Assembly (NCBI GenBank): GCA_006218035.1
Contig: VBWC01000002.1
Span: 62,001-126,000, forward strand
DNA: 64,000 bases
Direction of reading: 5' to 3'
Source of the DNA: Gammaproteobacteria bacterium
Lineage (GTDB): Bacteria > Pseudomonadota > Gammaproteobacteria > VBWC01
Below the pieces are notes generated by a model. It was not told the origin of the DNA. It ran no database searches and worked only from the letters and a program-made list of their open reading frames with translations. Positions 53,395-55,637 of this stretch are shown here, one piece after another. The translations under genes and the position numbers were made by a program. The stretch's first letter is position 1. Each line of letters starts with the position of its first letter.

Positions 53395-54291
53395 ATGGTA
53401 ACCGGGAAATTGACAGTCGGACTGGTACAGCACGAGTGCTCGGCCGATGCCGAGGCGAATATCGACAAATGTATCGCGGGCATACGCGCGGCGGCCGGCA
53501 ATGGCGCTCGACTAGTCATCCTGCCCGAGCTGCATAACACGCGGTACTTCTGCCAGACAGAGAATGATGCAAATTTCGACCTGGCAGAAACCATTCCCGG
53601 CCCGACCACGCAGCGGCTGTCGCAGCTGGCCGCGGAACTGCGGGTTGTCATTGTTGGCTCGCTGTTCGAGCGCCGCGCGCGCGGTGTTTATCACAACACC
53701 GCGGCTGTCATCGACAGTGACGGCTCGCTGGCCGGCATTTACCGCAAGATGCATATACCGGACGACCCCGGCTATTACGAGAAATATTACTTCACGCCGG
53801 GCGATCTCGGGTTCACGCCGATCGACACCGCGGTTGGACGCCTGGGCGTGCTGATCTGCTGGGACCAGTGGTTTCCCGAAGCGGCGCGATTGATGACGCT
53901 GGCGGGAGCCGACCTGCTGATCTATCCGACGGCGATCGGCTGGAATCCCGACGATGAACTGGCGGAACGTCAGCGTCAGCTCGACGCGTGGATCACCGTG
54001 CAGCGCGCCCACGCGATCGCCAACGGCAACCCGGTGATTGTCTGCAATCGCACCGGCCACGAAGACGATCCGTCCGGGCAGTCCGCCGGTATCGATTTCT
54101 GGGGATCGAGCTTCGTCGCGGGACCGCAGGGAGAAACGATCGTGATGGCCGCGCCGGACCAGCCGGCGGTGATCAACGCGGAAGTTGATTTCGATCGCAG
54201 CGAGCAGGTACGCCGCGTCTGGCCCTACCTGCGCGACCGGCGCATTGACGCGTATCATGATCTGGAACGCCGTTACCTCGACGCCCGGTGA
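53395..54291 (+). CDS. aguB: N-carbamoylputrescine amidase
   Basis: A 298-residue nitrilase-family enzyme with the Glu-Lys-Cys triad: Glu45 in VILPELHNTR, Lys118 in YRKMHIPDD, and Cys155 in LICWDQWFPEAARL. It hydrolyses N-carbamoylputrescine to putrescine, CO2 and ammonia. YYEKYYFTPGDLGF and NPVIVCNRTGHE are typical of the AguB group. It begins 81 bases after aguA on the same strand. Polyamines are needed by most Gammaproteobacteria, and arginine decarboxylase is not in the window. Confidence 0.96.
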   Translation: MVTGKLTVGLVQHECSADAEANIDKCIAGIRAAAGNGARLVILPELHNTRYFCQTENDANFDLAETIPGPTTQRLSQLAAELRVVIVGSLFERRARGVYHNTAAVIDSDGSLAGIYRKMHIPDDPGYYEKYYFTPGDLGFTPIDTAVGRLGVLICWDQWFPEAARLMTLAGADLLIYPTAIGWNPDDELAERQRQLDAWITVQRAHAIANGNPVIVCNRTGHEDDPSGQSAGIDFWGSSFVAGPQGETIVMAAPDQPAVINAEVDFDRSEQVRRVWPYLRDRRIDAYHDLERRYLDAR

Positions 54292-54312
54292 TGAACGGCC
54301 AGAATGCGAAGA

Positions 54313-54477
54313 ACTAACAGGATGTTGAAAAAGTCCATCCATGGCCTTTTTCAACGCGCAAAGCAAAAATGTGATTTTTGCTTTGCTTCATTTTTCAAAC
54401 AGTTGAAAACCTGTTTGAAAAATAATGGCAGTGCATCCATGCACCGCACGCAGGCTGTTTTTCAACAGCCTGCTAAC
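54313..54477. repeat. Multi-hairpin intergenic element
   Basis: Between aguB and the DAHP synthase gene lie five stem-loops in a row: GTTGAAAAAG/CTTTTTCAAC (54324-54333 / 54346-54355), a 13-base perfect stem GCAAAGCAAAAAT/ATTTTTGCTTTGC (54358-54370 / 54374-54386, 3-base loop), ATTTTTCAAACAG/CTGTTTGAAAAAT (54390-54402 / 54411-54423, 8-base loop), GTGCAT/ATGCAC (54431-54436 / 54439-54444) and GCAGGCTGTT/AACAGCCTGC (54450-54459 / 54464-54473). The outer ends are imperfect inverted repeats of each other (around CTAACAGGATGTTGAAAAA and its counterpart). This looks like a MITE or composite REP element. Confidence 0.7.
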
Positions 54478-54521
54478 GGACAATATATCGACAATCGACT
54501 AACAGCGAGTCACCCAGCCTC

Positions 54522-55637
54522 ATGATACTGATTCTCGAATCCGACATTGACAAGCAAGGACCCAAATACGTCTCGTTGATCGACTACTTGTCCAAGCTGC
54601 CGGCCATTCAGATACGCACCCATGAAGAACACGGTACACAGCAGGTGCTCACGGAGATATACCTCGTCGGCGACACCGGTGCATTGGTGACCGATGACAT
54701 GCAGGCGCTGCCGGGTGTCGAACGCGTCGTACGGATTTCACGGGAATACCGTGTGCTCGGTCGTCACAAGGACGACAAACGCTCGACACACTTCGAATAC
54801 AACGGCGTTCTTTTCAGCCAGGACAATCTGAACGTGTTCGCGGGCCTGTGCGCCGTCGATAATCCGAAGCACGTCGAGATGATGATGAAAGCGCTGCGCG
54901 ACAATGGTCAGACATGTACGCGCATGGGGGCCTACAAGCCACGCTCCAGCCCCTACGCGTTCCAGGGACACGGCAAGGCGTGCCTGGCATACACGTTTGA
55001 ACTCGCCGGAAAATACGGCATCAAGGTCATCGCGATGGAGGTCACGCATGAATCGCACGTCGACGAAATCCGGAACGCGCTCGATACCACCGGCAGCCCG
55101 ACCGGGGTAATGCTGCAGATCGGAACGCGCAACACCCAGAACTTCGAGTTGCTAAAGGCAGTGGGTCGGCAGAACGAATTTCCGGTGCTGCTGAAACGCG
55201 GCTTCGGCATCACGCTGCATGAATCATTGAACGCGTCGGAGTATCTGGCGAGCGAAGGTAACCGCAAGGTGATATTCGGCCTGCGTGGCATGAAAACCCA
55301 TCATGATGACCCGCACCGAAATTTCGTCGATTTCGCACTGGTTCCGGCAATCAAGCGCCTGACCCGCATGCCGGTCTGCATCGACCCGTCCCATTCGGTC
55401 GGCAACCGCGATCGGGATCCGGATGGCATACTTGACCTTTTTCATGTCACCGCGCAGGCAGTCGTTGCCGGCGCCAACATGATACTGGTCGACTTTCATC
55501 CGGTGCCAAGGCAGGCACTGGTCGATGGGCCGCAGGCATTGTTGATCGAGGAGTTACCCTACTTCCTCGAGGATGTCCGTATTGCCCGCGGCGCTTACGA
55601 AGCACGCAAGAAATTGCGGCAGCATCAGCCTGTCTAG
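54522..55637 (+). CDS. Divergent type I-beta DAHP synthase
   Basis: A 371-residue 3-deoxy-7-phosphoheptulonate synthase-like protein that would open the shikimate pathway from PEP and erythrose-4-phosphate. Residues 1-75 look like the ferredoxin-like regulatory domain of I-beta enzymes. AYKPRSSPYAFQG (137-149) is the phosphate and PEP signature, LLKRGFG a catalytic Lys stretch, and CIDPSHSVG holds the metal His291. The usual GPCSVE is GLCAVD (108-113, Cys110 kept) and the metal Glu of EVHP is Asp324 in VDFHP, while the later ligand Asp335 is kept. So the metal site appears intact but altered. It lies alone 230 bases after aguB, far from the other aro genes. Confidence 0.82.
   Translation: MILILESDIDKQGPKYVSLIDYLSKLPAIQIRTHEEHGTQQVLTEIYLVGDTGALVTDDMQALPGVERVVRISREYRVLGRHKDDKRSTHFEYNGVLFSQDNLNVFAGLCAVDNPKHVEMMMKALRDNGQTCTRMGAYKPRSSPYAFQGHGKACLAYTFELAGKYGIKVIAMEVTHESHVDEIRNALDTTGSPTGVMLQIGTRNTQNFELLKAVGRQNEFPVLLKRGFGITLHESLNASEYLASEGNRKVIFGLRGMKTHHDDPHRNFVDFALVPAIKRLTRMPVCIDPSHSVGNRDRDPDGILDLFHVTAQAVVAGANMILVDFHPVPRQALVDGPQALLIEELPYFLEDVRIARGAYEARKKLRQHQPV

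Follow-up and report, generated by a model that had tools for sequence, protein, structure and literature searches.

The window, a stretch of 64,000 nucleotides of gammaproteobacterial DNA, carries a short palindromic element in the gap between two plus-strand ORFs, an upstream one at 53395..54291, read as aguB in the initial annotation, and a downstream one at 54522..55637, read there as a DAHP synthase gene. That annotation placed a five-stem composite palindrome at 54313-54477. Indeed, the sequence there is as described, and the exact limits of the element are 54318..54472 on the plus strand, a length of 155 bp, leaving 26 bases between it and the upstream ORF and 49 between it and the downstream one. 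The element has no coding capacity; among the listed ORFs of at least 90 amino acids just one overlaps it, and that one runs antisense to the upstream ORF. Its termini, CAGGATGTTGAAAAA on the left and CAGGCTGTTGAAAAA on the right when read as the reverse complement, form terminal inverted repeats, imperfect as had been noticed, and the left terminal inverted repeat, CAGGATGTTGAAAAAGTCC, occupies 54318..54336 on the plus strand. The same four bases, CTAA, flank the element at 54314..54317 and 54473..54476; they fit the consensus YTAR and make up a target-site duplication.

Local folding resolved the element into five consecutive plus-strand hairpins. H1 (54321..54357) has 15 pairs, the loop TCCA and a 5′ arm overlapping the left terminal repeat. 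H2 (54358..54386) and H3 (54390..54423) have 13 perfect pairs each, H4 (54428..54447) has 7 pairs and again the loop TCCA, and H5 (54451..54472) has 9 pairs, with its 3′ half forming part of the right terminal inverted repeat. The stems had been given as 10, 13, 13, 6 and 10 bases; both mismatch-free 13-base stems agree with our folding, whereas the other three are revised to 15, 7 and 9 pairs. Folding the region as the annotation had proposed, we found it far more stable than its dinucleotide shuffles: the energy of 54300-54490 was -70.2 kcal/mol against -40.4 (sd 4.0), with none of 200 shuffles as low (z -7.4). With local pairs only, the element alone gave -64.2, whereas 1000 shuffles averaged -29.1 and reached -48.0 at the lowest.

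A mobile miniature element had been among the suggested readings, to be doubted if only a single copy existed. The genome of origin (G000; 3.0 Mb in 62 contigs) gave 36 BLAST match rows to the window element; these include its match to itself, complete and partial further copies, some of which take up two rows, and 2 opposite-strand self-matches. The end motif, allowing at most 2 mismatches, matched 53 times in this genome; a reversed control pattern matched once. In a genome of the same genus (G001), both flanks are joined at one TTAA, an exact empty site, so the insertion either postdates the divergence of these genomes or has disappeared from G001. To characterize the group, we extracted 67 elements in sets of 47 and 20 and kept 61, leaving out four of another, single-palindrome type (L163, L176, L181 and L190), the incomplete L082, and L118, a copy from Magnetococcales with a final stem that pairs no more than 4 bases; the right end of L016 was not obtained in the second extraction. 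In 33 of the 61 the two flanking 4-mers were identical, whereas permutation gave 6.5 on average and never more than 15; YTAR fitted 43 left and 33 right flanks. Where several right ends were candidates, as in 4 of the 47 elements of the first set, the end was picked by flank likeness; as a check for bias, 27 of 47 flank pairs are identical as chosen and 26 of 47 if the last candidate is always taken. Together with the terminal repeats and with IS5-family insertion sequences (ISs) bearing the same ends in other genomes, described below, the copies, the 4-bp target duplication and the empty site bear out the mobile-element reading.

For several copies (L116, L120, L131, L138, L144 and L177), the stop codon of a long ORF immediately adjoins the start or the end of the element. 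The YTAR target includes the stop codons TAA and TAG, and its duplication can restore the stop. Other copies in the genome of origin (among L019-L034) are cut short 55-57 bases from an end, in some cases at N runs or contig ends. We considered these short copies as a second, smaller element and rejected that on account of the broken ends, N runs and contig ends. The break-off pattern would fit the limits of k-mer assembly, so we did not treat these copies as a form in their own right, and this assembly is probably unreliable at the repeats owing to short-read limits. The element itself is not an assembly product, since the closed single-contig genomes G125, G020 and G261 carry it. G020 contains three tandem H1-H4 units with a period of 124 bp at one place (L267, C1:2568700-2570000) and two tandem H1-H4 units at another (L266, C1:1594100-1595500); tandem units in a closed genome indicate that the unit can amplify in place.

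Smaller relatives also occur. Solo forms of about 22-44 bp, consisting of H5 alone or H1 alone, lie between YTAR repeats in the genome of origin (L038), in G001 (L083) and in G327 (L187); L037 in the genome of origin is a degraded counterpart of L083. Counting L189 as well, the one-hairpin and three-hairpin forms between YTAR repeats may have arisen via deletion or via transposition. Some small elements share these ends, exactly or nearly, and differ in the interior; they were seen in the genome of origin (L068, L069 at 825-973, L070, L071 and L073) and in other genomes (L163, L165, L176, L181 and L190). Several of these differing-interior elements consist of a long palindrome with an interruption and contain inner repeats similar to TCAAAATGCTCAT.

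We then examined the fold across the collection. Exactly five hairpins of at least 5 pairs were present in 59 of the 61 elements, the exceptions being L137 with four and L160 with seven; with the dropped L118 included, the count is 59 of 62. Lengths ran from 138 to 179 with a median of 152. A single Magnetococcales MAG supplied 16 of the 61, and reducing the set at 90% identity leaves 34. Because H1 or the end sequences had served to pick the elements, H1 and H5 do not count as independent evidence. RNAalifold on a first alignment (A1) missed H3 and H5, and the structure was therefore tested with named pairs on a structure-free MAFFT alignment of H1-H4 (A2), made from 27 of 30 reference elements (L150, L168 and L085 were left out). 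In A2, 86.2% of 1297 cells were paired, compared with 71.6% when partners were shuffled and 50-52% when one side was slid by one column. Both sides had changed in 35 of 49 pairs. Swapping arms among 10 dissimilar elements made each hairpin weaker on average, and native arms were better than swapped ones in 72, 86, 90, 79 and 82 of 90 swaps for H1 to H5, respectively; two members of this set (L127 and L130) have inserts, and some hairpins there are not matched one to one. Hairpins 1-4 covary strongly.

The loops were compared with the stems in two alignments. In a model-aligned set (A3; 62 of 75 rows used, 34 after thinning at 85% identity), loops carried a mean information of 1.24 bits and stems 0.96, the model favouring both pairing and these loops. 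There was no difference in the MAFFT set, with 1.10 bits for loops and 1.13 for stems. TCC was found in the H1 loop of all 34 thinned A3 rows and in the H4 loop of 33-34 of them, among hits from a model search that favours such loops.

The plan is widespread. An exact H1 pattern matched 49 stretches in named genomes, most of them from one Magnetococcales MAG. The other sources were gammaproteobacterial, Nevskia, Sedimenticola, Muproteobacteria, Acidiferrobacterales, Natronospirales and Desulfarculus MAGs, together with a Deltaproteobacteria, a Nitrospirae and a Peptococcaceae MAG; MAG binning was taken as given, so the out-of-phylum names may reflect contamination. A covariance model of H1-H4, whose E-values are rough and stand without shuffled-genome calibration, matched at E ≤1e-4 in 59 of 274 genomes of the window's class, from 45 of 221 genera, and the best E was ≤1e-10 in 42 of the 274; the genomes searched include several that supplied rows to the model, and the number of matches scored in any one genome was limited by a cap. 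With the same rough E-values, 46 of 398 genomes drawn from the phylum had matches at E ≤1e-6, 43 of them outside the class, of which 35 belong to one family (f207). In matches fetched from 10 genomes outside the class, the hairpins were visible by eye where the locus was long enough. Among the plasmids and phages searched, we found no matches. The superfamily spans many families of the window's class and at least one other class of the phylum, and it reaches other phyla if the binning of the MAGs is right.

A fold so strongly covarying could be selected in RNA. The initial annotation had mentioned a source of structured RNA, and one can picture the same MITE with hairpins that act in read-through transcripts to protect, terminate or regulate neighbouring mRNAs. 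The covariation and the conserved loops would fit such a role, and so would the placement of the copies, which by long ORFs rather than annotated genes, and with the limits of some elements approximate, fall into 29 tandem, 20 convergent and only 7 divergent gaps; of 76 places, 18 lacked a pair of neighbours and 2 fell within an ORF. Transcribed MITEs are described for Coxiella in the available part of PMC5896051. Selection on RNA should tolerate G·U pairs, and here the answer depends on the pairs that close the loops. Without them, G·U and A·C occurred in 28 and 29 of 1505 cells of the thinned, model-aligned A3 (34 rows), and in 33 and 23 of 886 cells of the thinned A2 (p 0.23). With the loop-closing pairs the counts were 34 and 29 in A3, and 47 and 24 in A2 (p 0.009), the last of which counts against a DNA-level reading. 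Orientation showed no preference: in tandem gene pairs where the strand of the element was known, 12 elements lay along the genes and 15 opposite. Rfam gave no family for window positions 53800-55000 at E ≤1, and 25 further loci returned one tRNA only. Moreover, copies that share a site mostly lose their pairing, as detailed below. G·U being about as rare as A·C and the strands being used alike, the fold is probably kept at the DNA level; selection on DNA probably fits these observations better than selection on one RNA strand, and we regard the RNA explanation as unlikely.

Pairing could also be kept by mutation rather than selection. In this explanation, template switching in quasi-palindromes copies one arm onto the other, so that stems stay perfect as their letters drift; near-perfect pairing with no clear excess of G·U is what it would produce. 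Five sites common to the genome of origin and G001 bear on this directly. Between their copies 35 stem pairs had changed: 18 were broken, 9 had become G·U, 1 had a gap and 7 were still Watson-Crick. One site, L016 in the genome of origin and L076 in G001, accounts for 5 of those 7. Its H2 differs on both arms and pairs in both genomes, which template switching would explain; the change may reflect recombination between copies, a templated change or re-insertion. At the other four sites, only 2 of 24 changed pairs stayed Watson-Crick, contrary to continual correction. Such correction would not preserve loops, yet TCC is constant in the H1 and nearly or fully constant in the H4 loops counted above, with the model's preference for such hits noted there, and it leaves the order and spacing of the five hairpins unexplained. 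We consider template switching improbable, a little more so than a role in RNA. Since copies at fixed sites mostly decay, pairing across the family follows most simply from selection among the copies that transpose.

If the element is moved in trans, a partner IS should share its ends. One candidate is a 1.3-kb IS present in four copies in G262, with ends CAGGCTGTTGAAAATTCC and CAGGCTGTTGAAAAAGTCC; these ends are of the CAGGCTGTTGAAAA type, close to the left terminal repeat of the window element. Two copies are flanked by TTAA on both sides, and the other two have unlike flanks. This IS encodes a transposase of the IS5 family, which matches NCBIfam transpos_IS5_4 (E 1.2e-79) as well as Pfam DUF772 and DDE_Tnp_1. 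The transposase of G040, a genome that also carries relatives of the window element, is 59% identical to it and belongs to the same family (transpos_IS5_4, E 9.6e-79), and the IS there has CTAG next to CAGGCTGTTGA at one end and CTAG next to CAGGTTGTTGA at the other, that is, CTAG followed by CAGG. No homologue of the G262 transposase was found in the genome of origin or in G001; the assembly of the former is in 62 contigs, so the partner may have been lost in assembly. CAGG ends were found at 0 of 6 PF01609 loci of these two genomes, one of which, L093 (G001 C6:251527-254865), has the related end GAGGCTGTAGAAAAA. L093 is a 2.3-kb element with GAGGCTGTAGAAAAA ends and two opposed sets of ORFs that we take to be transposase-like, perhaps one IS inside another.

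The five-hairpin plan occurs with quite different terminal repeats across lineages. In G261, three fetched IS copies end in YTAR followed by GGAAACGCTGA, and the elements there have GAAGCGCTGA at one end and GGAAACGCTGA or GGAACCGCTGA at the other. Four IS copies in G125 have the ends GGAACTTCTGCAAAAGTCC and GGATGCTCTGAACAAGT, with identical YTAR repeats in 3 of the 4; elements of that genome end in GGAAG[G/C]TCTGAATAAG. Two of the four fetched copies (L297 and L311) adjoin the end of a five-hairpin element, with the YTAR common to both. The genome of origin has an IS (L088) with the ends of another element type, GGAAACTCTGA and GGAACCTCTGC rather than CAGG, and the element of that type (L035) ends in GGAAACTCTGA and GGAACCTCTGA. 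In all, the ends of resident ISs resemble those of elements in six genomes (G000, G081, G091, G125, G150 and G261), by a search of 38 loci at up to 3 mismatches, with likeness judged by motif and loci available for 30 of 57 listed rows. G010 is an exception, with CTCTG ends on its IS5-family IS and GAGGGTGTCGCAAAA ends on its element. For G020, G022, G133, G159 and G163, the loci that were fetched showed no IS to match the element. All transposases checked, from G000, G001, G040, G081, G091, G010, G125 and G261, pass the transpos_IS5_4 cut-off. Terminal repeats differ between lineages and often resemble those of a resident IS5-family element.

The remaining suggestion of the initial annotation, a REP or BIME cluster mobilised by a RAYT (Y1 transposase), draws on the array of palindromes near gene ends and on Y1_Tnp genes in 5 of 5 genomes tested (23 match rows), and we give it almost no credence: CAGG ends were missing from all 20 Y1 loci fetched from those 5 genomes (L094-L113), on which we rejected a RAYT origin; neither GTAG nor CGTC, the tags that adjoin REP palindromes according to the available part of PMC3733652, occurs on either strand of 54314-54476; and the 4-bp target duplications and the empty site contradict it. 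REP/RAYT elements are not known to make a 4-bp target duplication.

Taken together, these data make it likely that the window element is a 155-bp non-autonomous IS5-type MITE of a five-hairpin superfamily, mobilised in trans, with its fold selected on DNA among transposing copies. An IS5-family transposase would recognise the terminal repeats and move the element, which would insert into YTAR and duplicate 4 bp, as the anatomy of the ends and the empty site indicate. The terminal repeats vary by lineage, and the four inner hairpins keep their order, spacing and loops (TCCN in H1 and H4). Near-strict Watson-Crick pairing, the lack of strand preference and the loss of most pairing at fixed sites argue that selection among transposing copies would act on DNA rather than RNA. 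The hairpins most likely extrude as cruciforms or on single-stranded DNA, and once extruded they could bring the two ends of the 155-bp element together in the transposition complex by shortening or hinging it. Against a hinge role, forms that lack the inner hairpins (L038, L083, L187 and L189) also lie between YTAR repeats. A bolder proposal, which we offer tentatively and with more doubt than confidence, is that the identity of the superfamily lies in the DNA fold rather than in a sequence. The five hairpins with their fixed loops would form a cruciform or single-strand scaffold, needed by an IS5-family transposase or by a host factor to mobilise very short DNA, while the ends would change to follow the resident transposase.

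MITEs are usually viewed as internally deleted insertion sequences whose interior is irrelevant. Here, in 45 genera of one class and beyond, the architecture of the interior has persisted while most of its sequence, and even the terminal repeats, changed. Relatives with differing letters and the same fold in many bacteria suggest that the folded shape itself matters for spread. Selection of DNA secondary structure inside a miniature transposon, for transposition, thereby becomes testable. The covariance model also provides a route to annotate a repeat that seemingly breaks short-read assemblies and could pass for structured RNA or for terminators.

We compared the element with known systems. 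A description of the five-hairpin element was not found in the open-licence literature by end sequence or topic, including the accessible part of PMC4853749 and with ISfinder outside the search; it is possible that a member has already been described under another name. ERIC and Correia/NEMIS, intergenic repeats with stable stem-loops, have fewer stems; we set them apart by description only. REP, BIME and REPIN sequences with their RAYTs share short-palindrome arrays near gene ends and differ in that the window copy lacks GTAG and CGTC, has a real target duplication and shows no Y1 association that we could find. Chunjie of Geobacter and Nezha of cyanobacteria, compared by description only, are likewise bacterial MITEs with direct repeats, and Chunjie has size variants according to the consulted part of PMC10969869. 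The available portions of PMC10969869 and PMC5896051 describe MITEs as having a core between terminal repeats that folds into a long stem-loop. The closest relatives by type are the IS5-family MITEs, which are short and non-coding, with IS5-like terminal inverted repeats, many mostly intergenic copies and the same 4-bp YTAR target duplication. YTAR is a target of IS5 itself. Unlike these MITEs, however, the element described here has a fixed hairpin array with constant loops, common to lineages whose terminal repeats differ.
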